This document shows, one piece after another, positions 35,891 to 50,122 of a DNA stretch of 64,000 nucleotides. Made by a program: the position numbers and the translations under genes. The DNA comes from Microlunatus panaciterrae (lineage in GTDB: Bacteria; Actinomycetota; Actinomycetes; Propionibacteriales; Propionibacteriaceae): the NCBI RefSeq assembly GCF_016907535.1, contig NZ_JAFBCF010000001.1, positions 1,054,001-1,118,000 on the forward strand, given 5' to 3'. Below the pieces are notes generated by a model. The model saw only the letters and a program-made list of their open reading frames with translations, had not been told where the DNA came from and ran no database searches. Within the stretch, counting starts at the first letter, position 1; each line of letters opens with the position of its first letter.

Positions 35891-38128
35891 TTGACCACGA
35901 CTGCTGCCACACCGGCGGTGGCGGACCCCACCGGTCCCACCATTGCCACGCACTGCCCCTACTGCGCGCTGCAGTGCGCCATGACCCTGGCTGGGCCACA
36001 GGCCGAGGTATCAGGCCGCGACTTCCCCACCAACAAGGGTGGTCTGTGCCAGAAGGGCTGGACCAGCGCCACCGTGCTGCGGGCGCCGGACCGCCTGACG
36101 ACGCCGCTGATCCGCGGCCGCGACCACGAGCTGCACCCGGCCAGCTGGGACCGGGCCCTCGCCCTGATCGCCGAGCGGATCACCGCCACCAAGGCGACGT
36201 ACGGTCCGGATGCCGTGGCCGTCTTCGGCGGCGGCGGGCTGACCAACGAAAAGGCCTACACCCTCGGCAAGTTCGCAAGAACCGCGATCGGCACGGCCAA
36301 CATCGACTACAACGGTAGGTTCTGCATGGCCAGCGCGGCCGCCGCCGCCAACCGCGCCCTCGGCGTGGACCGCGGGCTGCCGTTCCCGCTGGCAGACCTG
36401 GCCGGCGCCCAGGCGATCCTGCTGCTCGGCAGCAACCTGGCCGAGACGATGCCGCCGGCTGTGCAGCATCTGGCCGGCGTACGTGGGCAGGGCGGACTCA
36501 TCGTCGTTGACCCGCGCCGCAGCGCCACGGCTCGGCTGACCGCCGACGGTGCTGGGATCCATCTCCAACCCGCACCGGGAACCGACCTGGTGGTACTGCA
36601 GGCTCTGCTGCACGTGGTCTTCGCCGAGCGGCTGGCCGACGAAAGCTACCTGGCCCAGCGGACCTCGGGCGTCGAGCAGGTCCGCCGGTCGGTCTCCACC
36701 TGGTGGCCGGAGCGGGCCGAGCAGGTCTGCGGGATCAACGCCGAGACGCTGCGTACGGTGGCTCGCCGGCTGGCCGCCGCCAGCCCCGCACACGGCGGCC
36801 GGGGTGCGATGATCCTGTCCGGTCGCGGCGTTGAGCAGTCCACCCAGGGGACCGACACGGTCACCGCGGCCATCAACCTGGCGCTGGCCCTCGGGCTACC
36901 CGGCCGGGCAGCCAGTGGCTACGGCGCGATCACCGGTCAGGGCAATGGACAGGGTGGCCGCGAGCACGGCCAGAAGGCCGACCAGCTTCCCGGTTACCGC
37001 AGGATTGACGACCCCGCAGCCCGCGCCCAGGTGGCTGGCGTCTGGGGAGTGGACCCCGAGACGCTGCCGGGCGTCGGGCTGCCGGCGGTGGAGCTGTTGC
37101 GCCGGCTCGGCACCCCCGAAGGACCGAAGGTGCTGTTGGTGCACGGCAGCAATCTGCTGGTCAGCGCACCCAACGCCGGCCGGCTCCGTGACCGGCTGGC
37201 GGCGCTGGACCTGCTGGTGGTCAGCGACTTCGTACCGTCGGAGACCGCACTGCTGGCCGACGTCGTGCTGCCGGTCACCCAGTGGGCCGAGGAGGAAGGC
37301 ACGATGACCTCCCTGGAGGGCCGGGTCATCCGGCGCCGACGCGCCATCGACCCGCCGCCCGGGGTCCGCTCGGAGCTGGACATCCTGGCCGAGCTGGCCC
37401 GACGGCTGGAGTCGGAGGTCGACCTCGAGACCGGCCCGGCGGCGGTATTCGACGAGCTGGCTCGTGCCAGTGCCGGCGGTCCCGCGGACTACAGCGGTCT
37501 CAGCCACGCCCGGTTGGACCTGGAGCCGGACCTCTTCTGGCCCTGCCCGGCCACCGGACCCGCTGGCTCGCAGCATCCCGGCACAGCGCGGCTGTTCACC
37601 GACACCTTCCCGACCGCGGACGGCCGGGCCCGAATGATCGCCGTGGACCATCGAGGGCCCAGTGACGATGTCCGCCCCGACGCGCCGATCTACCTGGTGA
37701 CCGGCCGCGTGCTGCAGCACTACCAGTCAGGGGCCCAGACCCGGCGGGTCCCCGAGCTGGCGAAGGCCTGCCCCGGCCCGTACGTGGAAATGCACCAGGC
37801 GCTGGCCGACCGGATCGGCGTCGTCGAGGGAGAGCTGGTGGTGCTGACCAGCAGTCGGGGTGAGGTCACGGCGGCGGCCCGGCTGACGAGCAACATCCGC
37901 ACCGACACCGTCTTCATGCCGTTTCACTGGAGCGGTGCCGGCAGCGCCAACCTGGTGACGACCGATGCAACCGACCCGATCTCGGGGATGCCCGAGTTCA
38001 AGGTCTGTGCGGTGTCGATCTGCGCCTCCCGGCCGTCACAGCAGGCTGCCGACCCCGCCCCGCGCCGAAGCGGAGACTCGCTTTCTCCGGTGCCCGTTCG
38101 CGTCCTGATGGATGAGGAGAACAGATGA
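35891..38128 (+). CDS. nasA: Assimilatory nitrate reductase, molybdenum catalytic subunit
   Basis: 745 residues. N-terminal [4Fe-4S] site Cys22, Cys25, Cys29 and Cys53 (HCPYCALQC ... GLCQKG); the molybdenum-ligand Cys of NGRFCMASA is Cys145; molybdopterin domains run to about 590 and a dinucleotide-binding domain to the end (MPFHWSG). No signal peptide, so it is cytoplasmic and assimilatory. I take the TTG at 35891, with GAGG 6 bases upstream; no ATG exists before the first cysteines. Overlaps the next gene by 4 bases. Confidence 0.93.
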   Translation: MTTTAATPAVADPTGPTIATHCPYCALQCAMTLAGPQAEVSGRDFPTNKGGLCQKGWTSATVLRAPDRLTTPLIRGRDHELHPASWDRALALIAERITATKATYGPDAVAVFGGGGLTNEKAYTLGKFARTAIGTANIDYNGRFCMASAAAAANRALGVDRGLPFPLADLAGAQAILLLGSNLAETMPPAVQHLAGVRGQGGLIVVDPRRSATARLTADGAGIHLQPAPGTDLVVLQALLHVVFAERLADESYLAQRTSGVEQVRRSVSTWWPERAEQVCGINAETLRTVARRLAAASPAHGGRGAMILSGRGVEQSTQGTDTVTAAINLALALGLPGRAASGYGAITGQGNGQGGREHGQKADQLPGYRRIDDPAARAQVAGVWGVDPETLPGVGLPAVELLRRLGTPEGPKVLLVHGSNLLVSAPNAGRLRDRLAALDLLVVSDFVPSETALLADVVLPVTQWAEEEGTMTSLEGRVIRRRRAIDPPPGVRSELDILAELARRLESEVDLETGPAAVFDELARASAGGPADYSGLSHARLDLEPDLFWPCPATGPAGSQHPGTARLFTDTFPTADGRARMIAVDHRGPSDDVRPDAPIYLVTGRVLQHYQSGAQTRRVPELAKACPGPYVEMHQALADRIGVVEGELVVLTSSRGEVTAAARLTSNIRTDTVFMPFHWSGAGSANLVTTDATDPISGMPEFKVCAVSICASRPSQQAADPAPRRSGDSLSPVPVRVLMDEENR

Positions 38129-39696
38129 CCACCCGAATCGTCGTCGTCGGACACGGCATGGTGGGTTCCCGCTTCGTCGAGGACCTCCTCCGCCGGGACC
38201 ACGACCGTCAGTACGACATCACCGTGCTCGGCGCGGAGGGCTACGAGCCGTACAACCGGGTGCTGCTGAGCGACGTAGTGGCGGGCCGGGTCGAGGTCAC
38301 GGGGCTGGTGCTGCCTGGCGCCGCCGATGAGCGGGTCCGGGTGCTGCGTGGAGTGGGAGCGCGCCGGATCGACCGGCGGGCGCGGCTCGTGGTGGCCTCC
38401 GACGGCAGCAGGCACGCCTATGACCGGCTGGTGCTGGCCACCGGCTCCCGGGCCCGGATTCCCGACCTGCCTGGCCTGGAGCGGCCCGGCGACCCGACCG
38501 CCGGAGACCTGCCTGGACTGCCCGCCGGCATCCACCCGCTCCGCACCCTCGACGATGCGCGCGAGATCGTGGCGGCCACCGTCAACGCCGGCATCGCCGT
38601 CGTCCTCGGTGCCGGCGTGCTCGGCCTCGAGGTGGCCTGCGGACTGGCCAGGCGCGGCCTGCAGGTGACGGTCATCCACGGCAATCCGACACCGATGGAC
38701 CGGCAGCTGGACACCGGGGCAGGGCAGACGGTGGCCGCCTCGCTCACCGGGATGGGCATCCAGCAGCGCATGTCGGCAAAGATCGACGAGGTGCTCGTCT
38801 CGGACGGGAGGCTGGCCGGGATCCGGCTGGTCGGCGGTGAGCAGGTTCCGGCCGAGCTGCTGGTGCTCGCCTGTGGCACCGAGCCGGAAACCCGGCTGGC
38901 CGCCGACGCCGGCCTCGCCGTGGGCCGAGGGGTGATCGTGAGTGAAGCGCTGTCCAGTCCGACGGACGACAACGTCTTCGCCATCGGCGACTGCGCCCAG
39001 CCGCCGGAAGGTTCGTCGGGGCTGATCGCCCAGGGCTGGGACCAGGCCCGTCAGCTGGCCGCCAGACTGACCCGGACTGCCCACGCGACCTCGGCAGCGG
39101 CACCGCGCAATGATGTCGTCCGGGTCAAGGCTCACGGTCTGGAGGTGGTCGCGATGGGTGTCTGCGGTGAGCGCCGAGTGAACGACCCGACCCACCGCAC
39201 CCTTCGGTTGAGCGATCCCGACCAGGGCCGACATCTGGAGGTGGTGGTGGCGGGCGGCCTGCTGGTCGGCGCCACCTGCGTGGGCTCGCCGGCCGTCGGT
39301 GCGGACCTGGTCTCGGCCTTCACCCGCGGTACGCCCGTTCCGGCCGACCCGGCCCAGCTGCTGATCCGCTCACTGGCGCCGGCCGCAACCCCGGCGACCT
39401 CACCGACCCACATTCCCGACCGGGCCACCATCTGCAACTGCAACGGCGTGCGCAAGAAGGACATCGTCTCGGCCTGGCGGTCTGGCGCCCGCGCGGTCTC
39501 GGAGGTGGCCTGTGCCACCCGGGCGACAACCGGCTGTGGCACCTGCACCAATGCGGTCTGCGGCATCGTCGACTGGCTCGCCAGCGTCGACCCGCAGCCG
39601 GACGAATCGCCCTCACATCCACGCTCCGAACGGGGTGAGCAGGGTGTTACACCCGGGAAACACCACCTGCACACAGCGGAAATCACGGCTGGTTAG
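38125..39696 (+). CDS. FAD-dependent oxidoreductase with BFD [2Fe-2S] domain (nitrate reductase electron-transfer subunit)
   Basis: 523 residues. FAD motif VVVGHGMVGSRFVE (5-18), NAD-binding GAGVLGLEVACGLARRG, and a C-terminal BFD-like iron-sulfur domain with Cys437, Cys439, Cys471 and Cys474 (ICNCNG ... GCGTC). The arrangement resembles the N-terminal part of NirB and NasB of Bacillus. ATGA overlap with nasA points to electron supply from NAD(P)H. The last ~20 codons also contain the nirB promoter, and the stop codon is part of the nirB -10. Confidence 0.88.
   Translation: MTTRIVVVGHGMVGSRFVEDLLRRDHDRQYDITVLGAEGYEPYNRVLLSDVVAGRVEVTGLVLPGAADERVRVLRGVGARRIDRRARLVVASDGSRHAYDRLVLATGSRARIPDLPGLERPGDPTAGDLPGLPAGIHPLRTLDDAREIVAATVNAGIAVVLGAGVLGLEVACGLARRGLQVTVIHGNPTPMDRQLDTGAGQTVAASLTGMGIQQRMSAKIDEVLVSDGRLAGIRLVGGEQVPAELLVLACGTEPETRLAADAGLAVGRGVIVSEALSSPTDDNVFAIGDCAQPPEGSSGLIAQGWDQARQLAARLTRTAHATSAAAPRNDVVRVKAHGLEVVAMGVCGERRVNDPTHRTLRLSDPDQGRHLEVVVAGGLLVGATCVGSPAVGADLVSAFTRGTPVPADPAQLLIRSLAPAATPATSPTHIPDRATICNCNGVRKKDIVSAWRSGARAVSEVACATRATTGCGTCTNAVCGIVDWLASVDPQPDESPSHPRSERGEQGVTPGKHHLHTAEITAG
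39646..39683 (+). promoter_or_regulatory. GlnR box upstream of nirB
   Basis: GTTAC (39646-39650), GAAAC (39657-39661), TGCAC (39668-39672) and GAAAT (39679-39683), each separated by exactly 6 bases: the gTnAC-n6-GaAAc-n6-gTnAC-n6-GaAAc pattern known for GlnR. The first pair is a perfect match. It overlaps the end of the upstream gene. Confidence 0.72.
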
Positions 39697-39699
39697 CGT
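39694..39699 (+). promoter_or_regulatory. Putative -10 element of leaderless nirB
   Basis: TAGCGT, 7 bases before the ATG at 39707. Its first three bases are the stop codon of the preceding gene. Confidence 0.55.
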
Positions 39700-39706
39700 C
39701 ATGGGC

Positions 39707-42310
39707 ATGAGCAGCGCACCGAACTCCCCCGGATCCCATCCGACCGGGAAGCACCTCGTCGTCGTGGGTGGCGGCATGGTCGCCCAACGGCTGGTCGAGG
39801 CCCTGCGCGCACGGGACACCGGCAACGTCTGGCGCATCACCGTCGCCTCTGAGGAGGCGGCGTTGCCCTACGACCGGGTCGCGCTGACCAGCTTCTTCTC
39901 CGGCCGGACACCGGCGGACCTGGCCCTCGGCGACGTCACCCTGTGGGACGACCCGTACGTCCGGCTGGCCAGCGAAGTTGCCGCCACCGCCATCGACCGG
40001 CAGTCCCAGACCGTGACGCTGGCCGACGGGACGGTCGAGAGCTACGACCACCTCGTGCTGGCCACCGGGTCGTACGCGTTCGTGCCACCGGTGGACGGCG
40101 CCGACCTGCCGGGCGTCTTCGTCTACCGCACCGTCGAGGACGTGGCCGCGCTGCGCGACTGGGTGCAGGAGCTGAACGACCGGCTGGACCGACCGGTACG
40201 CGGCGCCGTGGTCGGCGGCGGACTGCTCGGTCTGGAGGCCGCCGGAGCCCTGCAGGCGCTGGGCGCCGACAGCACAGTGATCGAGTTCGCGCCGCGGCTG
40301 ATGGCGCTGCAGGTCGACGAGGGCGGCGGTCAGGCGCTCAACCGGCTGATCACCTCCCTCGGCATCGCCGTCCGGACCGAGACCGCGACCGCTCGACTGG
40401 TCGCCGACGGGTCAGGACCGGTGTCGCGGATGGAGTTCGCCGACGGCGACCAGCTGGACGTGGATGTGGTCATCTTCGCCACTGGCGTACGGCCGCGGGA
40501 CGAGCTGGCCGGCGAAGCGGGTCTGCCGCTCGGGCCGCGCGGCGGTGTCGTCGTCGACGAGGCCTGCCGCAGCCTCGACGAGCACGTCTCCGCCATCGGC
40601 GAGGTCGCCTGCATCGAGGGGCGTTGTCTCGGACTGGTCGCCCCCGGCTACACGATGGCCGAGGTCGTGGCCGACCGACTGCTGGGTGGCCAGGCCACCT
40701 TCCCGGGGGCCGATCTGTCCACCAAGCTGAAGCTGCTGGGTGTCGACGTGGCGAGCTTCGGCGACGCCTTCGCCACCACCCCCGGTGCCCTCGAGGTGGT
40801 GTTCGCCGACCCGGTCGCGGGCGTCTACAAGAAGCTGGTGCTGTCGGACGACGCACGGACCCTGCTAGGTGGGGTTCTGGTGGGTGACGCCAGCGCGTAC
40901 GCCTCGCTGCGCCCGATCGTCGGCCGTGAGCTCAATGGCGACCCGAGCGCCTACCTGCTGCCGGAGGGGTCGGCGCCGGCGCCGGGCGGCGACCTCCCCG
41001 ACGATGCCGGCGTCTGCTCCTGCAACAACGTCTCGGCCGGAGCGATCCGGTGTGCCGTCGCCGAGGGCGACTGCGCGGATCTGGCCGGCGTGAAGGCCTG
41101 CACCAGGGCCGGCACGAGCTGTGGCTCCTGTCTGCCGCTGGTCAAGCGGCTGGTCACCGATGAGCTGCAGAAGTCGGGGGTGACGGTCAGCAACGCGCTC
41201 TGTGAGCACTTCGAGCTGTCCCGGGCGCAGCTGTTCGACGCCGTCCAGGTGACCGGACTGCGTTCGTTCTCCGAGATCGTCACCCGGCACGGCCAGGGTC
41301 GCGGCTGCGACATCTGCAAGCCGGTGGTGGCCTCCATCCTGGCGTCGCTCGGCAGCGGTCACATCCTGGCCGGTGAGCAGGCGGCCCTGCAGGACACCAA
41401 CGACCACGTGATGGCCAACCTGCAGAAGGACGGCAGCTATTCGGTGGTCCCCCGGATTCCCGGTGGTGAGATCACCCCCGAGGGCCTGCTGGTCATCGGG
41501 CAGGTGGCCAAGGACTTCGGGCTCTACACCAAGATCACCGGTGGTCAGCGGATCGACCTCTTCGGTGCAAGGATCGAGCAGTTGCCGCACATCTGGCGCC
41601 GGCTGGTCGAGGCCGGCTTCGAGTCCGGCCACGCCTATGGCAAGGCGCTGCGCACGGTGAAGTCGTGTGTCGGCTCCACCTGGTGCCGCTACGGTGTGCA
41701 GGACTCGGTCGGGTTGGCGATCGCCCTCGAACTGCGCTACCGCGGTCTGCGGTCGCCGCACAAGATCAAGCTGGGCGTCTCCGGCTGTGCCCGCGAATGC
41801 GCCGAGGCCCGCAGCAAGGACGTGGGCGTGATCGCGACCGACAACGGCTGGAACCTGTACGTGGGCGGCAACGGCGGTTTCACCCCGCGTCATGCCCGGT
41901 TGCTGGCCGAGGACCTCGACACCGAAACGCTGGTCCGCACCATCGACCGGTTCCTGATGTACTACGTCCGCACCGCGGACCGGCTGCAGCGCACCGCGCC
42001 ATGGATCGAGGAGGTCGAGGGCGGCCTCGACGGGGTCCGCAGCGTGGTGCTCGAGGACTCACTCGGCATCTGTGCCGATCTCGACCAGGCGATGGCTGCC
42101 CACGTGGAGCACTACTCCGACGAGTGGGCCGATGCGCTGGACGACCCGGAGAAGCTGCGCTGGTTCTCCTCCTTCGTCAACGCCCCCGAGGAGGCCGACC
42201 CGTCGTTGGCCTACGTCAACGAGCGCGGGCAGGCCCGCCCCGCCACCCAGACCGAACGCCAGCAGAGCGCTGTGCTGATCGCCGGAACTACTTTGGAGGT
42301 ACGTCAATGA
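39707..42310 (+). CDS. nirB: Nitrite reductase (NADH), large subunit
   Basis: 867 residues, reducing nitrite to ammonia with six electrons. FAD/NAD domains (about 15-420), a BFD-like [2Fe-2S] domain with Cys437, Cys439, Cys472 and Cys475, and the sulfite/nitrite reductase part whose siroheme-[4Fe-4S] ligands are Cys654, Cys660, Cys694 and Cys698 (CVGSTWC, CARECA). The ATG at 39707 is preferred over one 6 bases earlier because of the 7-base spacing from the -10. Overlaps nirD by 4 bases. Confidence 0.96.
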   Translation: MSSAPNSPGSHPTGKHLVVVGGGMVAQRLVEALRARDTGNVWRITVASEEAALPYDRVALTSFFSGRTPADLALGDVTLWDDPYVRLASEVAATAIDRQSQTVTLADGTVESYDHLVLATGSYAFVPPVDGADLPGVFVYRTVEDVAALRDWVQELNDRLDRPVRGAVVGGGLLGLEAAGALQALGADSTVIEFAPRLMALQVDEGGGQALNRLITSLGIAVRTETATARLVADGSGPVSRMEFADGDQLDVDVVIFATGVRPRDELAGEAGLPLGPRGGVVVDEACRSLDEHVSAIGEVACIEGRCLGLVAPGYTMAEVVADRLLGGQATFPGADLSTKLKLLGVDVASFGDAFATTPGALEVVFADPVAGVYKKLVLSDDARTLLGGVLVGDASAYASLRPIVGRELNGDPSAYLLPEGSAPAPGGDLPDDAGVCSCNNVSAGAIRCAVAEGDCADLAGVKACTRAGTSCGSCLPLVKRLVTDELQKSGVTVSNALCEHFELSRAQLFDAVQVTGLRSFSEIVTRHGQGRGCDICKPVVASILASLGSGHILAGEQAALQDTNDHVMANLQKDGSYSVVPRIPGGEITPEGLLVIGQVAKDFGLYTKITGGQRIDLFGARIEQLPHIWRRLVEAGFESGHAYGKALRTVKSCVGSTWCRYGVQDSVGLAIALELRYRGLRSPHKIKLGVSGCARECAEARSKDVGVIATDNGWNLYVGGNGGFTPRHARLLAEDLDTETLVRTIDRFLMYYVRTADRLQRTAPWIEEVEGGLDGVRSVVLEDSLGICADLDQAMAAHVEHYSDEWADALDDPEKLRWFSSFVNAPEEADPSLAYVNERGQARPATQTERQQSAVLIAGTTLEVRQ

Positions 42311-42711
42311 CGCTGCTCGATTTCGTCTCCCCCAGCGGCCAGGACGAGCCGACCTGGCAGCGGGTCTGTCGGCTCGACGACCTGGGGGCAGAGCGTGGGT
42401 CCGTCGCACTGCTCAACGGCCAGCAGGTCGCCCTGTTCCGGCTGCTGGACGGTGAGGTGTACGCCGTCCAACAGCTCGACCCGTACAGCGGCGCGTACGT
42501 CATGTCCCGCGGCATCGTCGGCAGCCGTGGAGATGCCCCGACCGTCGCCTCGCCGATGTACAAGCAGGTGTTCGACCTGCGCAACGGCTTCTGCCTGGAC
42601 CCGATGGGCAAGGAGCCGGTGCACCTGCAGACCTGGCCGGTGCGGGTCAGTGACGGCGACGTCCTGGTGGGGACTGGGTCGATGCTGCTGACCGTCGAGA
42701 GCGCTGCATGA
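42307..42711 (+). CDS. nirD: Nitrite reductase (NADH), small subunit
   Basis: 134 residues with a Rieske-like fold; the Cys/His cluster ligands are absent (for example ASPMYKQVFDLRNGFCLDP), as in all NirD subunits, so it carries no iron-sulfur centre. Assembles with NirB. ATGA overlaps on both sides (nirB and the siroheme gene) indicate a tightly coupled operon. Confidence 0.93.
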   Translation: MTLLDFVSPSGQDEPTWQRVCRLDDLGAERGSVALLNGQQVALFRLLDGEVYAVQQLDPYSGAYVMSRGIVGSRGDAPTVASPMYKQVFDLRNGFCLDPMGKEPVHLQTWPVRVSDGDVLVGTGSMLLTVESAA

Positions 42712-43226
42712 CCACCCTGTTGGGTATCGAGCTGTCCGGCCGCAGCGTGCTTATCGTCGGCGGCGGACCGGTCGCTGACCGTCGGGCTCGGGCAGCGCTG
42801 GACGACGGCGCCCGGGTCACGGTGGTGGCACCGGAGCTCGACGCAGGACTTGGCGGCTTGGCCGCGTCGGCGAAGGTGGACTGGCGCCCGCGTCCGGTCC
42901 GCCCCGAGGATCTGGACGGCGTCTGGCTGGTGCAGGCGGCCACCGACTCAGCCGAGGTGAACGCCGCCGTTGCCGATTGGGCCAGCGACCAGCGGGTGTG
43001 GTGCGTCAACGCTGGCAACGTCGAGCAGGGCAGTGCCCGGACACCGGCCACCGCACACGGGGACGACCTGCTGGTCGGCGTCGTCTCGGTCGGCTCTCCG
43101 GACCCACGCCGGGTGAGGGCGGTGCGGGACCAGCTGATCGTCCTGCTCCGCTCGGGGCGACTCGATCAACGCCGTCACCGGCGGCTCGACGGCCGCGCCG
43201 CCGGCAGGGAGCGACTGGCGTCATGA
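42708..43226 (+). CDS. Precorrin-2 dehydrogenase/sirohydrochlorin ferrochelatase (CysG N-terminal part only)
   Basis: 172 residues, the NAD-binding part of siroheme synthase: VLIVGGGPVADRRARAALDDGA (14-35), and SVGSPDPRRVRAVRDQL in the ferrochelatase region. It oxidises precorrin-2 and inserts iron. The methyltransferase half of CysG is missing and no separate gene for it is visible, so that step must be encoded elsewhere. Overlaps nirD and the next gene by 4 bases each. Confidence 0.87.
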   Translation: MTTLLGIELSGRSVLIVGGGPVADRRARAALDDGARVTVVAPELDAGLGGLAASAKVDWRPRPVRPEDLDGVWLVQAATDSAEVNAAVADWASDQRVWCVNAGNVEQGSARTPATAHGDDLLVGVVSVGSPDPRRVRAVRDQLIVLLRSGRLDQRRHRRLDGRAAGRERLAS

Positions 43227-44383
43227 CCGGCGGCGTCCAGGCCGCGCAGACGCACCCCCGGCGCATGTCGACAGCGGGAAACCAGGTGATGGCGGGATGT
43301 GTCGTGCTGATCACCGCAGACCGCCGCTCGGCGGAGCTGGCCGCAGCACTGACCCGGCGCGGCGCCTCGGTACGGCACGCGCCGGCGATCAGCATGATGC
43401 CGAACGCCGACGACGAGCCACTGTTGTCAGGCACCCGGGCACTGATCGACGATCCGCCGGACGTGGTCGTGGTGACCACCGGCATCGGGTTCCGCGGCTG
43501 GATTGAGGCGGCCGACGCGGCCGGCCTGGCCGACCAGCTGCTCGAGGTGCTGGGGTCGGCACGGATCGTCGCCCGCGGGCCCAAGGCGAGAGGCGCCATC
43601 CAGGCGGCCGGTCTGCAGGCTGACTGGGTGGCAGAGTCGGAGCTGTCGGCCGAGATCGCCGACGTGCTGCTGAGCGAGGGTGTGGCGGGGCTCCGGATCG
43701 CGGTGCAGCATCACGGCGCCGGCGCCGACGGGCTGGACGAGGTGTTCGAGTCGGCCGGCGCCGAGGTCGAGAGCCTGATCGTCTACCGGTGGGGCCCACC
43801 ACCTGATCCGGAGGCATTGCAGCTCTCGGTCCGCCAGGTTGCCGCCGGTGAGCTGGACGCTGTGGTGTTCACCTCCGCCCCCGGAGCGGAGGCCTGGCTG
43901 GCTGCAGCGGAGCAGGCCGGCTGTCTGGAGGGAGTGCTCAACCAGTTCAGCAGTGGCACCATCGCCGCCGCGGTCGGCCCCGTCACGGCCGGCCCGTTGG
44001 GGCGCCGTGGCGTGACACCGGTGGTTCCTGAACGCGGCAGGCTGGGCGCGCTCGTACGCACCCTTGTCGATCACTACGAACAGGCCCAGACGCTGGCTCT
44101 GGACACGGTGGCCGGCAAGCTCCAGGTGCGCCGCCAGATGGCGGTGCTGGACGGTCGCATCCTGCCGGTCTCCCCCAGCGGTGTCGCGGTATTGCGACTG
44201 CTGATGGCAACTCCGGGCGAGGTCGTTCCCCGGAGTGCCGTACTGAAGGCACTGCCCGGCGACTCGAAGGACCCGCACACTGCCGAGGTGGCAATTGCCC
44301 GGCTGCGCGAAGCCACCGGGCAGCGCAGCTTGATCAAGACCGTCGTCCGGCGGGGGTACCGGCTGCAGCTCAGGACTGACTGA
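43223..44383 (+). CDS. Uroporphyrinogen-III synthase fused to a winged-helix DNA-binding domain
   Basis: 386 residues. Positions about 20-275 form a HemD fold (VVTTGIGFRGW, VVFTSAPGAEAWL), and about 285-386 an OmpR/PhoB-like winged helix (ILPVSPSGVAVLRLLMATPGEVVPRS ... RLREATGQRSLIKTVVRRGYRL). Similar fusions occur next to nitrite reductase genes in mycobacteria. It may couple siroheme precursor supply to transcription; whether the HemD part is still catalytic is unknown. Last gene of the nitrate operon. Confidence 0.87.
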   Translation: MTGGVQAAQTHPRRMSTAGNQVMAGCVVLITADRRSAELAAALTRRGASVRHAPAISMMPNADDEPLLSGTRALIDDPPDVVVVTTGIGFRGWIEAADAAGLADQLLEVLGSARIVARGPKARGAIQAAGLQADWVAESELSAEIADVLLSEGVAGLRIAVQHHGAGADGLDEVFESAGAEVESLIVYRWGPPPDPEALQLSVRQVAAGELDAVVFTSAPGAEAWLAAAEQAGCLEGVLNQFSSGTIAAAVGPVTAGPLGRRGVTPVVPERGRLGALVRTLVDHYEQAQTLALDTVAGKLQVRRQMAVLDGRILPVSPSGVAVLRLLMATPGEVVPRSAVLKALPGDSKDPHTAEVAIARLREATGQRSLIKTVVRRGYRLQLRTD

Positions 44384-44494
44384 GCATCACCCCGGATCAG
44401 GCAGCGTGATCGACATCGGTATCAGGCCCCGGCCCGGCGATCTCCAACCAGCAAGAGGCGGGACAGTGGAGTCACGCCGGACTGGAGAACTGAA

Positions 44495-46507
44495 ATGCCC
44501 ATCTTCCGACCGCTGGATGCCAGCACGCCCGGGGGTGAACCCCCCAACCTCGACGAGGCTGCCGAGGTCATGCTGACCGGCCAGACGCTGAAACGCCTGC
44601 TGGCTGACGGATCTGCCCTGCCCGAACTCGAGGAGGCCATGCACACAGGTGACACCCGGGCCTTCGCGGCAGCGCTGGAACGCAACGGCGTCCTTGATCA
44701 GTTGGCGTTGATCTGCCGCTGGGTCTGCAGCTGGCACGTCCAACGCCGCTGCTTCTGGGTGTGTCGTGACCATGATCTCGAGGAGATGTCCCTCGAGGAG
44801 GCGCGCCAGGCGACCCTTGGGTTCGCCAAGCTTGCCGAGGTGGACGGGGTGCTGGAGAAGTTGATCGACGCTGTCGACTCCGCCGACGGCGACGTGTTCA
44901 ACAAGCTGCTCGACCGGTTCGGCCTCGGTCGCTACTGCCGGTTCATCTGCGTGTTGATCTTGACCGTCCGCTGCGAGTTGTTCTGTCTGCGGTTGCAGCC
45001 CCGCGGCGAGAAGGAGAAGCCGCGCGACCTCGTCGCCGTCATCCGCGACGTGGCCAGGGCCACTGCCGCGGTCGCTGAGGATGACAACGGACTTGAGTCC
45101 GCGGTCAACGCCTACATGAGCGGCAACTTCGAGGTGATCCACCGGCTGCTGGAGGCCAAGGACGTCTTCCGGTTCTGCCGGTTGGTGTGCTGGTGGTTCT
45201 GCGTGCTGATCCCCTACCTTCGCTGCGTCCGGGTGTGCCGCGCACTCGGTCCGATCGACGTCGGTCGGATCCCGCGGCCCGGCGATCCCGGCCCGATCCG
45301 GCAGTGGGCCGAGGTGGTGGCCTCACTCGCCGCTGACCGACAGCAGGTGGACGAGTTGTTGGCGCCCGTCTTCGCCTTCGAAGACGACAAGTTCCTGGAG
45401 GCCGTCCGTCGGCACGATCTTCGGCTGTGGTGCCACTACGTGTGCTTCTGGTTCTATCGGCTGCGGTGCCACCGCAACTGCTTCCTCATCTGCCCACCGC
45501 GTCCTCCGCTGCCGCTGTTCTACCGGCTGGGAGAGTACGACTTCCCGGCCGAGGTGGACTCCGCGGCCGGTGGCAGCGGGCTGACCCTGCCCACGGGCCT
45601 GGATGGGCAGCGGGCCTTCTTCGCCACGGTGCGGCTGAACGGGTCGGAACTGCAGAAGCAGTACAACGGCGGAGGGCCCGAGTATCGCTTCGAGGTCAAC
45701 ACCGGTGCCGGCTGGACGCCCGTACTGGGTGGCCAGATCGCGCCGACCGCCATCGGCTCCTGGACCCGCGCCGGCCTGCTGACTCCGCAGATGTACGTGG
45801 TGAACAGCACCGGTGCCCCCAACGAGATCCCGGTCGTGGTCAAGCCGGGCGGCTGGATCGAGGTGCCGACAGCGAACAACTACTGGGGTGCCGAGGGCTA
45901 CTTCTCGTCCAACGGCAACTACATCATGTTCGACACCACCACCGTGGTGGCGGCCACACCCCATGACGCGTCCAGTGTCGACGCGGGTGAGGCGGTGCCG
46001 AGCAGCGAGCTGGGTGCGGACCACACCATCGGCCTCCGGATGCGCTGGCGCAAGGTGGGCGACACCACGGACGGCCTGATTGTGGGAACGGCGGACACCG
46101 TCGCGGTCTCGAACGACCGGTGGAACCTGGTGAGCAAGGGCGGCAAGTGGTTGCCGAGCCGGGTCAACGGTCAGCTGGCCGTGGTCAGCCTGGACATCGA
46201 TGAGCTCGGCGCCGGATGCGCCGACATCACCGACCAGCTGCACGTCCGCTACACCGCCTCGCATCCGAACCTGGGTGTGGTCAGCCTGGACCTGCAGGGC
46301 CCCGGCGGCCTGACGCTGACGATGGTGAACGACGCCTCCTCGACGCCGGACAACACCTTCGGAGTCGCCGAGATCACCGCACCGAAGACAGCATCAGACC
46401 TGCCCCGCTGCAGCTATATCGCCAAGCTCAGCGCGACCCTGATGCTCACCGACGGTGACCACGTCCCAGACGCCGTGCGGGACGAGATCGCCTTCCACAA
46501 GGCGTGA
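44495..46507 (+). CDS. Protein with four cysteine-quartet repeats, function unknown
   Basis: 670 residues, not recognised. Residues about 20-335 consist of four repeats of 70-85 residues, each with an acidic helical stretch followed by a hydrophobic, Arg- and Trp-rich segment carrying C-x3-C-x7-C-x3-C: Cys74/78/86/90, Cys148/152/160/164, Cys228/232/244/248 (11 between the pairs, extra Cys236) and Cys313/317/325/329 (extra Cys333). Residues about 340-670 are a beta-rich domain (YRFEVNTGAGWTPVLGGQ) with only two cysteines. No signal peptide. GGAGAA precedes the ATG. Metal or cluster binding is an inference. 111 bases after the nitrate operon. Confidence 0.8.
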   Translation: MPIFRPLDASTPGGEPPNLDEAAEVMLTGQTLKRLLADGSALPELEEAMHTGDTRAFAAALERNGVLDQLALICRWVCSWHVQRRCFWVCRDHDLEEMSLEEARQATLGFAKLAEVDGVLEKLIDAVDSADGDVFNKLLDRFGLGRYCRFICVLILTVRCELFCLRLQPRGEKEKPRDLVAVIRDVARATAAVAEDDNGLESAVNAYMSGNFEVIHRLLEAKDVFRFCRLVCWWFCVLIPYLRCVRVCRALGPIDVGRIPRPGDPGPIRQWAEVVASLAADRQQVDELLAPVFAFEDDKFLEAVRRHDLRLWCHYVCFWFYRLRCHRNCFLICPPRPPLPLFYRLGEYDFPAEVDSAAGGSGLTLPTGLDGQRAFFATVRLNGSELQKQYNGGGPEYRFEVNTGAGWTPVLGGQIAPTAIGSWTRAGLLTPQMYVVNSTGAPNEIPVVVKPGGWIEVPTANNYWGAEGYFSSNGNYIMFDTTTVVAATPHDASSVDAGEAVPSSELGADHTIGLRMRWRKVGDTTDGLIVGTADTVAVSNDRWNLVSKGGKWLPSRVNGQLAVVSLDIDELGAGCADITDQLHVRYTASHPNLGVVSLDLQGPGGLTLTMVNDASSTPDNTFGVAEITAPKTASDLPRCSYIAKLSATLMLTDGDHVPDAVRDEIAFHKA

Positions 46508-46514
46508 CTCGACC

Positions 46515-46640
46515 GCTCTTCGACAAGCTCAGAGCGCGGAACGTGGCCTGAGCTTGTCGGGCACGTGCCCTGAGCTTGTCGGGCACGTGCCCTGAGCTTG
46601 TCGGGCACGTGCCCTGAGCTTGTCGAAGGGCCGCTCGCAC
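46515..46640. repeat. CTTCGACAGGCTCAGG-family array, 22-bp period
   Basis: GCACGTGCCCTGAGCTTGTC repeats start at 46561, 46583 and 46605, exactly 22 apart, bounded by an opposite-strand copy (CTTCGACAAGCTCAGAGC) at about 46518. Between the cysteine-repeat gene and ftsB, which converge. Confidence 0.85.
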
Positions 46641-46681
46641 CCGCAGAGCGCCAAGCGTGGGCGCGGGGGGATGTCGGAGCG

Positions 46682-47325
46682 TCAGCGACCGGGCGAGGGG
46701 GTGGAGTCGGCGGTGATGGTCGGCTCGTCGCTGGGCTTCTTCGGCTTCGGGGCCGGGTCATCGGCGGTCTTCAGGGAGCCGTAGAGGTCGGCCCACCAGG
46801 CCTGTCGCTTCTGGTCTCCGGCCGGCTTCTGATCGTCGGCACCGAGTTCGACACCGCCGTTGATCGGCTTGCCGTCCGGCCCCACCACCTTGTAGCCCAC
46901 CTCACCGGGGACCACCCAACCGAGCCGTTCGCGTGCCTGCGACTTGACGTAGGCCGGATCGTTCCAGCGCTCGACCTCCGTCTGCAGGTCGGCGATCCGC
47001 TGTTGGCTCTTCGCGATCTGCTGCTTCGTGGCGGCGATGTCCTGGCGCTGGGCGAAATAGATCCGCAGGCTCGAGGCGTACGAGATGGTCAAGATCAGCA
47101 GCACCACGACGAGGGCGATCGCCCGGGTGGTGATGCTGGAACGCCGACGCATCCTGGCCGCGGTCTGCTGCTCCGCCGGAGAGGAACCCTCCGGGCTGTC
47201 CGGTCCCGACTGGTTGCCGTGACCCGGCCGGTGGGCGGCCGCCTTGCGGGGGATGCTGCGGGCGCGCGGCTTGCCCCGCCCCGGTCCGGCACCGGGGCGG
47301 GAGGTCGGCCTTGGACCGCTCGGCA

Positions 47326-47326
<1 letters not shown>
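46682..47326 (-). CDS. ftsB: Septum formation initiator, FtsB/DivIC family
   Basis: 214 residues. Long Pro/Arg-rich cytoplasmic N-terminus (about 1-65), one transmembrane helix (about 69-87), a coiled coil (about 90-120, QRQDIAATKQQIAKSQQRIADLQTEVERW) and the DPAYVKSQARERLGWVVPGE motif that defines the family. Works in the divisome with FtsL and FtsQ. Its ATG overlaps the eno stop by one base (TAATG). Confidence 0.92.
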
Positions 47327-48702
<1,376 letters not shown>

Positions 48703-48800
48703 CTAACGGCGGACGAGGGCGTTGCCGACCACCCAGGCAGGTGCGTCCCGCCTTTTCCAGACCACACCAGTGCTGGTCCAGACCTCGCCCGGCGGTGGTC

Positions 48801-49160
48801 TCACCGGTCTCGGCGGCTGCCCCAGGCGTGCACGGCATTGACGCCGACGATCCCCGCCCAGGCGATCACCGTCTCGATCAGCGTGCCCTGGACGATGGTG
48901 ATCGCGGTGATCGGAATGCCGGCGCCCAACGAGATGATGCCGAGGACGAACCGCTGCGTTTGACCCCGCTGCGAGACCGCATCGACAGCGCGTACCCGCT
49001 CGGTCTGCTGTCTCAGCTCGGCTGTCCGGTACGCGGCCAGCTGCTCGATCCGCTCGGCCAACCCGGCCGCGATGTGCTCGTCGTAGTCGGGGCCCAGCTC
49101 CCCGCGGGCAGCCAGCGCCGCCTCGACGTCTCGGCGGGTCTCGTGCTGTGGCATGGACAT
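48801..49160 (-). CDS. Small two-helix membrane protein, function unknown
   Basis: 119 residues: an acidic helical N-terminal half (RRDVEAALAARGELGPDYDEHIAAGLAERIEQLAAYR is interrupted by charged residues suited to a coiled coil), then two transmembrane helices (about 70-92 and 95-112). TAGCCT lies 6 bases before the ATG at 49160, so a leaderless mRNA is likely. No partner is apparent. Confidence 0.75.
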   Translation of the reverse strand: MSMPQHETRRDVEAALAARGELGPDYDEHIAAGLAERIEQLAAYRTAELRQQTERVRAVDAVSQRGQTQRFVLGIISLGAGIPITAITIVQGTLIETVIAWAGIVGVNAVHAWGSRRDR

Positions 49161-49166
49161 GGCGAC

Positions 49167-49172
49167 AGGCTA
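49167..49172 (-). promoter_or_regulatory. Putative -10 of leaderless two-helix protein gene
   Basis: TAGCCT on the minus strand, 6 bases before the ATG at 49160. Confidence 0.45.
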
Positions 49173-49216
49173 CTCGCGAAGGCGACTCACAGGCTGCCGG
49201 GAATAGCCCCGGTCAC

Positions 49217-49460
49217 ACCCTGATCATGCCTCGTTCAGCCGCACCCTGATCATGCCTCGTTCAGCCGCACCCTGAGCCTGTCGTACGTGCCCTGAGCCTG
49301 TCGTACGCGCCCTGAGCCTGTCGTACGCGCCCTGAGCCTGTCGAAGGGCCAGCCGCATGCCGAATGGCAGGGTGTGGCTGCAAACTGCCCGCTTTCACAA
49401 CCACACGCTGCCGTACGAAAGGAGTGCTAGCCCTTCGACAGGCTCAGGGCGCGGGGGTGG
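49217..49460. repeat. Mixed repeat array (26-bp and 20-bp tandems, hairpin)
   Basis: A 308-base gene-free gap (49161-49468). ACCCTGATCATGCCTCGTTC... is repeated at 49217 and 49243 (26 bp); CCTGAGCCTGTCGTACGYGC follows at 49271, 49291 and 49311 (20 bp), then a last unit ending CGAAGGGCC. GGCAGGGTGTGG (49366-49377) pairs with 49401-49412 with one mismatch, and an opposite-strand CTTCGACAGGCTCAGG copy ends the array. Confidence 0.82.
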
Positions 49461-49468
49461 AGGTGGGC

Positions 49469-50122
49469 TCAGGGCTGGCTGGCGGACTCTGCCGCCAGCA
49501 CCTGGGTCTCGAGGGTGCGGACGGCCTGGCGAATGGCCTGTTCGGCGTCGATCCCCTGGGCATGGGCGCGGGCGACGAGGTTGATCACGTCCTGTCCGAC
49601 CGTGTCCGCCTCGACCGGGTCGGTCGGCAGGTCGAGCGGAACGTCCCTCGCTCGGGCCCGGGCGATGATCTTGCCGGCGCGCGCCACCGCCGACATCTTC
49701 TCCGGAATCCCCTCCAGCACCGAGGTACGGCCCTTCTCGGCCGCCTTGCGCTGCTCCCAGGTCGCGTGCAGGTCGGTCGGCACATCGTCGGAGGCGAAGA
49801 CGTACGGATGGCGCGCGATCAGCTTGTCAGCGACGCCGCGGGCGACGTCCTCCAGGCTGAAGCCGTCGGGCCTCTCGGCCGCGATGGTGGCGTGGAAGAC
49901 GACCTGCAGCAGCAGGTCGCCGAGCTCCTCGCGCAGGTGACTCTCATCGCCGGACTCGATCGCCTCGACCGTCTCCAGGGTCTCCTCGAGCAGATACTGC
50001 ACCAGGCTGTGGTGGGTCTGTTCGGCGTCCCAAGGACACTCCCGCCTCAGCGTCTCCATCACCTCGATGAAGCGGATCAGCTCGGCGTGATCGCCCTGCC
50101 TCAGCGTCGGCTCAGTGCTCAA
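49469..50122 (-). CDS. mazG: Nucleoside triphosphate pyrophosphohydrolase MazG
   Basis: 217 residues. Hydrolyses noncanonical or oxidised NTPs. The all-alpha MazG motifs EETLETVEAIESGD and LREELGDLLLQVVFH with metal-binding glutamates are intact; a second, less complete MazG-like region follows. I chose the TTG at 50122, whose bases overlap the TGA of the upstream gene (TTGA); a longer frame upstream is unsupported. mazG next to mfd is usual in actinobacteria. Confidence 0.9.
   Translation of the reverse strand: MSTEPTLRQGDHAELIRFIEVMETLRRECPWDAEQTHHSLVQYLLEETLETVEAIESGDESHLREELGDLLLQVVFHATIAAERPDGFSLEDVARGVADKLIARHPYVFASDDVPTDLHATWEQRKAAEKGRTSVLEGIPEKMSAVARAGKIIARARARDVPLDLPTDPVEADTVGQDVINLVARAHAQGIDAEQAIRQAVRTLETQVLAAESASQP

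Follow-up and report, generated by a model that had tools for sequence, protein, structure and literature searches.

What use does a bacterial protein have for 18 regularly spaced cysteines? The question is raised by an open reading frame (ORF) at 44495–46507 on the forward strand of a 64,000-nucleotide stretch of Microlunatus panaciterrae DNA (the window), which translates to a 670-residue protein with four cysteine-rich repeats in its N-terminal 333 residues. An earlier note, made from the sequence of the window, had described a four-repeat protein of no recognised family and suggested four metal or cluster sites, one cysteine quartet per repeat, or redox-active disulfides in a scaffold. Comparison with homologues suggests that these cysteines do not act as four quartets. 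Covariation couples repeat 1 with repeat 2 and repeat 3 with repeat 4, not positions within one repeat, so two cysteine-stapled helix pairs are likely.

That the gene exists and bears these cysteines is confirmed. The 670-residue reading frame has a plausible ATG start codon at 44495 and the base composition of a coding sequence; GC at codon positions 1/2/3 is 0.66/0.47/0.88, similar to the nearby genes for enolase (0.69/0.45/0.90) and nitrite reductase (0.72/0.49/0.90). The gene is present as a single copy in its own genome. Its parts are as follows.

44484..44487, forward strand: likely ribosome binding site GGAG, from sequence, 7 nt upstream of the ATG
44495..46507, forward strand: whole gene, encoding the 670-residue four-repeat Cys-ladder protein, from the ORF and alignment to family members
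44555..44764, forward strand: repeat 1, residues 21–90; three short helices, then Cys helix 67–89 with C74, C78, C86 and C90
44792..44995, forward strand: repeat 2, residues 100–167; Cys helix 145–167 with C148, C152, C160 and C164
45029..45241, forward strand: repeat 3, residues 179–249; Cys helix 225–249 with C228, C232, C236, C244 and C248
45287..45493, forward strand: repeat 4, residues 265–333; Cys helix 310–332 with C313, C317, C325, C329 and C333
45503..46504, forward strand: C-terminal half, residues 337–670; beta-rich, with a predicted immunoglobulin (Ig)/FN3-like sandwich arrangement and conserved C575 and C639

Eighteen cysteines thus lie in the four repeats and two in the C-terminal half. 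The exact motif C-x3-C-x7-C-x3-C occurs once per repeat, starting at residues 74, 148, 232 and 313; the 11-residue gap previously noted for repeat 3 is an alternative reading of its five cysteines. The protein has 10 i,i+4 cysteine pairs, compared with a mean of 0.57 and a maximum of 5 in 20,000 shuffles, so the spacing is not due to chance and the regular set first noticed is real.

Relatives were hard to find. A single-protein search with the window protein yielded none in genome, viral, plasmid or phage collections. Against 57 genomes (its own and 56 relatives up to order level), it gave a good match in its own genome only; three further weak matches (E 0.05–0.16) were set aside. When 394 class-level genomes were searched with the C-terminal half, its own genome and two strong matches were returned (E 6e-57 and 9e-45; 41% and 39% identity), along with three weak ones (E 0.004–0.009), around which no ORF proved to be a relative. 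The proteins behind the two strong matches, L006 and L007, begin with a different N-terminus that has no ladder. A profile of the four repeats found one other match in the same 394 genomes, G076 (E 6e-11), which has two repeats and a different C-terminus. We then searched an 84,980-species collection with a DNA pattern derived from these six repeats (a hydrophobic residue followed by C-x-W-[hydrophobic]-C-x2-[R/H/Q]-C-x2-[hydrophobic]-C). This gave 86 stretches, of which 31 encode multi-repeat proteins (30 genes in 29 genomes); the other 55, where our script saw no multi-repeat gene, were set aside. A profile search of the Acidobacteria phylum added two genes, and with G076 and the window the family comes to 34 genes in 33 genomes.

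The homologues indicate what the window protein is. Their Cys helix reads C-x3-C-x3-C-x3-C-x3-C(-x3-C), giving six slots per repeat, and like them the window protein has helical repeats of approximately 70–85 residues, each ending in a Cys helix with 4-residue cysteine spacing. By sequence it is a divergent member of an unnamed bacterial family (26% identical to the N-terminal part of L094 over 335 residues and 40% to the C-terminal part of L164 over 361), and its C-x3-C-x7-C-x3-C motif a worn form of the family's pattern of a cysteine at every fourth residue, up to six in all. The slots at 70 (L), 82 (V), 156 (L) and 168 (Q) in repeats 1–2 and at 240 (P) and 321 (Y) in repeats 3–4 are empty, hence the gapped quartets of the earlier description. 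The cysteines of that description are conserved in homologues. Members come in two forms, with four repeats (25 sequences could be used, some truncated, the window protein among them) or with two (eight). The four-repeat set omits L049, part of a gene also seen as L087 and as a whole in L161, and the partial L093, while L038 lacks the end of repeat 4.

To learn which cysteines belong together, we counted how often ladder cysteines are lost on both sides or on one side of a pair in the 25 four-repeat proteins. Antiparallel pairing of repeats 1–2 and 3–4 gave 32 co-losses against 4 single losses. Parallel pairing gave 3 against 62, same-helix i,i+4 pairing 3 against 62 in one phase and 0 against 40 in the other, antiparallel pairing shifted by one or two slots 1–2 against 49–52, and pairing the repeats as 1–4/2–3 or 1–3/2–4 gave 6 against 55. 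None of 20,000 random pairings reached 32 (maximum 31, mean 8.5), and 5,000 row shuffles yielded at most 22. For repeats 1–2, the antiparallel assignment is the best of all 720, with 29 co-losses. In the window protein all 18 N-terminal cysteines fall into nine proposed rungs, with none unpaired:

44714..44986, forward strand: proposed rungs of repeats 1–2, residues 74–164, 78–160, 86–152 and 90–148 (i+j=238), from covariation and occupancy
45176..45493, forward strand: proposed rungs of repeats 3–4, residues 228–333, 232–329, 236–325, 244–317 and 248–313 (i+j=561), from covariation (3 co-losses) and occupancy

The losses are not one shared event: on a tree from which the ladder columns were left out, and with single losses counted among the changes, parsimony gives 3, 1, 6, 3, 1 and 5 changes for the rungs of repeats 1–2 and 0, 0, 0, 1, 1 and 2 for those of repeats 3–4. 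The replacing residues vary (R/Y, A/A, S/S, E/D, T/S, V/F, P/Y and others). As a control for shared descent, we compared 17,955 column pairs, taking columns with 2–15 departures (rung 78–160 dropped out, cysteine not being the commonest residue there). A Jaccard index of 0.8 was reached by 4 of 55 Cys–Cys pairs, all of them proposed pairs, and by 5 of 17,900 other pairs. The rule extends beyond the ladders of the four-repeat form: in two-repeat members, with slots entered by eye from the alignment, the end rung has lost both cysteines in four of eight and kept both in four, with no mixed case. Of 24 sequences that can be read in both columns, 7 lack both cysteines of an off-ladder pair at 212 and 331, and none lacks just one. 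Sequences found by profile also follow the rule (L165, with V/F at one rung, L164 and G076, with A/Q). In the same control, the columns of E88 and R130 (consensus residues, window numbering) depart together with a Jaccard index of 0.88, which may reflect a salt bridge that links repeat 1 to repeat 2.

In an AlphaFold model of the window protein, made with 24 alignment rows, each repeat has four helices, of which the long fourth bears the cysteines, and the C-terminal half is beta (predicted local distance difference test, pLDDT, 80.6; predicted template modelling score, pTM, 0.61). The N-terminal part of L094, which has all 24 ladder cysteines, gave the same layout, its helices predicted with confidence (pLDDT 91.2, pTM 0.88). 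The model supports the beta-rich C-terminal half of the earlier note. Its ‘almost no Cys’ is literally correct, with two only, yet underrates them: C575 and C639 rank with the best-conserved positions, with cysteine in 16 of 16 and 15 of 15 non-gap rows, respectively.

We see an even chance that the protein consists of two helix pairs stapled by antiparallel disulfide rungs and carrying Ig-like beta-sandwich domains. The N-terminal 333 residues would form a scaffold of four repeats and 16 predicted helices, in which the Cys helix of repeat 1 would lie antiparallel against that of repeat 2, and the one of repeat 3 against that of repeat 4, with their cysteines facing in register. These would close into rungs, nine in the window protein and twelve in the fullest members, where the cysteines matching 212 and 331 would make one more pair apart from the ladder. 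Most likely these are disulfides that make the scaffold rigid, and it would hold out the predicted C-terminal Ig-like sandwiches, where C575 and C639 may form a further bond. As disulfides require an oxidising environment and no signal peptide can be made out, the protein probably works outside the cytosol after non-classical release, perhaps as a stable surface or released scaffold. By eye, no signal peptide was seen in the window protein, as first noted, or in the homologues inspected, with no predictor run. The Cys helices are unconvincing as membrane spans, with a hydropathy of 0.27–1.22 and several Arg.

Several points weigh against this reading. A reducing cytosol would disfavour disulfides, and again no signal peptide was seen. 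In a straight alpha helix the Cys stripe rotates by 40 degrees from one rung to the next, and a ladder of five or six would therefore require the helices to wind strongly. The total number of cysteines per protein is often odd, including all eight two-repeat sequences (some with an upstream extension), so some must lie outside internal disulfides. One-sided losses occur in L061, L036, L161 and L051, and in repeats 3–4, with 3 co-losses only, other assignments tie with the antiparallel register. Most homologues were found through a pattern that requires the ladder in one repeat, and no conserved neighbour among the surveyed loci points to a role. Finally, pairwise Cu(I) bis-thiolate sites across the helices would give an identical co-loss pattern.

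This last objection leads to the main rival, a metal store: as in the copper storage protein Csp3, Cu(I) or other soft-metal ions would sit in a row between the facing cysteines of an antiparallel helix pair. We consider this rather unlikely. Csp3 is described (PMC5171941) as cytosolic, with 18–19 cysteines all on helices, thiols that barely oxidise in air and 15 of 19 Cu sites bound by two cysteines only; eight sites are CXXXC pairs of a single helix, and most thiolates bridge two Cu. Pairwise co-loss would suit two-Cys sites of this kind, and the lack of a visible signal peptide a cytosolic protein. Csp3, however, uses same-helix CXXXC pairs, which is where co-loss is nearly lacking here, and the separate 212–331 pair is also all-or-none. 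At E 0.1, the 23 members searched hit 11 Pfam families between them, and the Csp (DUF326) model, PF03860, is not one of these; nor does the window protein match it at E 10. A reversible redox zipper, whose rungs would respond to oxidative stress in the cytosol by opening and closing and would switch or release the beta-sandwich part, seems improbable. It would agree with the paired cysteines and the lack of a visible signal peptide, and small Tim proteins offer a precedent in their twin CX3C motifs, which bind zinc when reduced and form two disulfides when oxidised (PMC3759932). In our judgement up to 13 pairs go well beyond what a switch needs, and by eye no redox partner gene stood out among the 40 largest neighbour clusters, many contigs being short.

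The four independent metal or Fe-S sites first proposed, one per repeat, draw on the regular quartet in each window repeat. We regard them as very improbable: homologues have up to six ladder cysteines per repeat, and the coupling is between repeats (32 against 4), not within them. From the earlier interpretation the repeat protein, its conservation and the disulfide option hold, the last being sound as one option, whereas the repeat as a self-contained quartet unit does not. We give next to no credence to oxidation of the cysteines by an MNIO enzyme (MbnB/TglH/ChrH, PF05114), with the protein as its substrate. A PF05114 gene adjoins the family gene in G076 and lies approximately 3 kb away in G690, but just 6 of the 33 family genomes have such a gene, as do 3 of 45 other genomes, and each of the two nearby enzyme clusters contains a small ORF with CxxC that may itself encode the precursor. 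A substrate of the ribosomally synthesised and post-translationally modified peptide type was rejected, as 27 of the 33 family genomes, that of the window among them, have no cognate PF05114. The two MNIO (PF05114-type) clusters, L017 411–2142 (reverse strand) and L183 8095–9914 (forward strand), each also include a possible partner gene.

How new would disulfide-stapled helix pairs be? In principle the closest known parallel is the CX3C hairpin, as seen in plant alpha-hairpinins and mitochondrial small Tim proteins. Alpha-hairpinins (CX3C-X4-20-CX3C) have two antiparallel helices joined by two disulfides, and a six-cysteine CX3CX3C form exists (PMC11591084), for which we infer three disulfides. 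They share with the ladder family the antiparallel helices and the 4-residue spacing, with CX3C or CX3CX3C per helix. In contrast, they are short peptides with a 4–20-residue loop, whereas here there are 4–6 rungs per pair and two tandem pairs in a 670-residue bacterial protein, and the gaps 90–148 and 248–313 hold 57 and 64 residues with three further helices each. Small Tim proteins likewise carry two CX3C motifs on paired helices joined by two disulfides, but have two rungs, are small mitochondrial proteins and show no sequence relation that we could find. Csp1 and Csp3 resemble the family in their many helix-borne cysteines with CXXXC motifs and, for Csp3, in lacking a signal peptide (PMC5171941), and differ in that the monomer is a single four-helix bundle with Cu sites along as well as across helices.

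The Hcp proteins of Helicobacter, built from a 36-residue disulfide-bridged alpha/alpha repeat (PMC2581425), and the CagY repeats are further cases of helical repeats with disulfides. In the material compared, these SEL1-like Cys-rich proteins and CagY repeats show no ladder with a cysteine at every fourth residue. Minicollagen Cys-rich domains polymerise via disulfide reshuffling and have no helical repeat scaffold. In cnidarians they have the 4-residue spacing CX3CX3CX3CX3CC (PMC4863159), but are small domains ending in CC, and the window protein has no CC.

CX3C-stapled helices are already known; the ladder length, the tandem far-apart helices and the bacterial setting are not described in the searched literature. 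More tentatively, we put forward a new kind of domain: a 16-helix bacterial scaffold in which each helix pair would be zipped by as many as six antiparallel disulfides in succession. This claim takes in the twelve rungs and side bond of the fullest members, the lack of a visible signal peptide, release by some other route, exchangeable beta-rich heads and possibly a new fold. If true, it would be the longest natural CX3C disulfide ladder known to us. The family, still unannotated, comes with an easily testable rule, as the cysteine pairs are named at exact positions. Should the rungs be disulfides, nine to thirteen of them in a protein without a visible signal peptide would pose a question of export and oxidation, and a very rigid helical scaffold would be on offer; should they bind metal, they would provide a second helical thiolate-store design beside Csp. 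Either way, the pairing of cysteines can be read from sequence through the pattern of co-loss.

The beta-rich C-termini may be exchangeable. By similarity, the N-terminal parts fall into a single cluster of 33, with L006 and L007 outside it; the C-terminal parts make up three clusters, of 22, 8 and 1, and L006 and L007 belong to the one of 22. Thus, one kind of Cys scaffold bears several C-termini, and one C-terminus is found on two kinds of N-terminus. L006 1489–3285 and L007 1495–3303 (both reverse strand) encode 598- and 602-residue proteins with the window-type C-terminal module; their different N-terminus contains cysteines without a ladder and by eye is transthyretin/carboxypeptidase-regulatory-like.

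The family is rare and patchy across bacteria. According to their record titles, its genomes belong to six phyla: Actinobacteria (including Thermoleophilia), Acidobacteria, Chloroflexi, Proteobacteria, Eremiobacterota and Verrucomicrobia (an Opitutaceae bacterium). Many of the genomes are metagenome bins. It was detected in 3 of 201 genomes of one order and 2 of 221 Chloroflexi genomes, all already known, and in 3 of 217 Acidobacteria genomes, one already known, while a six-row profile found only the window's own genome among 246 of its phylum. Worn members like the window protein will be under-counted because the DNA pattern favours full ladders. A genome of Solirubrobacter soli has one four-repeat and one two-repeat member.

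The absence of a recognised family was confirmed: no family in Pfam, NCBIfam, PHROGs or PADLOC rose above its own cut-off for the members searched. The window protein had no Pfam or NCBIfam match at E 10, six homologues had none or only sub-cut-off matches in Pfam, and 23 N-terminal parts matched the 11 Pfam families weakly (best CATASP, 1.3e-4, three members, and Ddi2_HDD, 5e-4, five members). NCBIfam gave sub-cut-off matches only, for 24 members and again for 10. Among these, the halocin C8-like domain TIGR04449 was rejected, at 16.6 and 15.1 bits (L066 and L096) against a cut-off of 24 bits; it matched 2 of 24 members, the window protein not among them. PADLOC and PHROGs returned nothing for four proteins at E 0.01, Foldseek with predicted structures nothing at E 0.001, and PDB sequences nothing for the query P0001; PDB profile matches were at E 0.011 or worse, the best to designed helical proteins. 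No paper on the family was found among the open-literature titles and abstracts listed, a scope that leaves aside subscription papers and preprints. With respect to a mobile or viral origin, the window protein was unmatched in plasmids and phages, L083 in plasmids, L094 in phages and its N-terminal part in plasmids, and in 14 viral stretches that matched the DNA pattern the script detected no multi-repeat gene.

A neighbourhood survey, which the earlier note had recommended, compared all ORFs up to 20 kb around the 34 genes, or on the whole of a short contig, against each other. It showed no recurrent companion gene of the family. Read by eye, the 40 largest clusters consisted of family members, frames overlapping them or genes of generic appearance, and among 122 Pfam families matched by 86 neighbour proteins none occurred in more than three members (best 25 of 122). 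A distant partner could be missed because many contigs are short. The only hints were BTAD regulators near the gene in four genomes and a 960-residue unannotated protein in two. The latter, mutually similar proteins of 960–980 residues without a signal peptide by eye, lie at L066 2099–5041 (forward strand) and near L101 (G691), in different phyla. In single cases, a zinc phospholipase-like gene adjoins L101 and a glucodextranase adjoins L049, and at L075 6016–7083 (forward strand) a phage/contractile-injection tail sheath gene (PF04984, PF17482) lies approximately 4 kb from a two-repeat member. In the window, Rfam gave no match in 38000–50000. Just 3' of the gene, at 46541–46625, are 3.9 tandem copies of a 22-bp unit (98% matches) with the palindrome GGGCACGTGCCC within.
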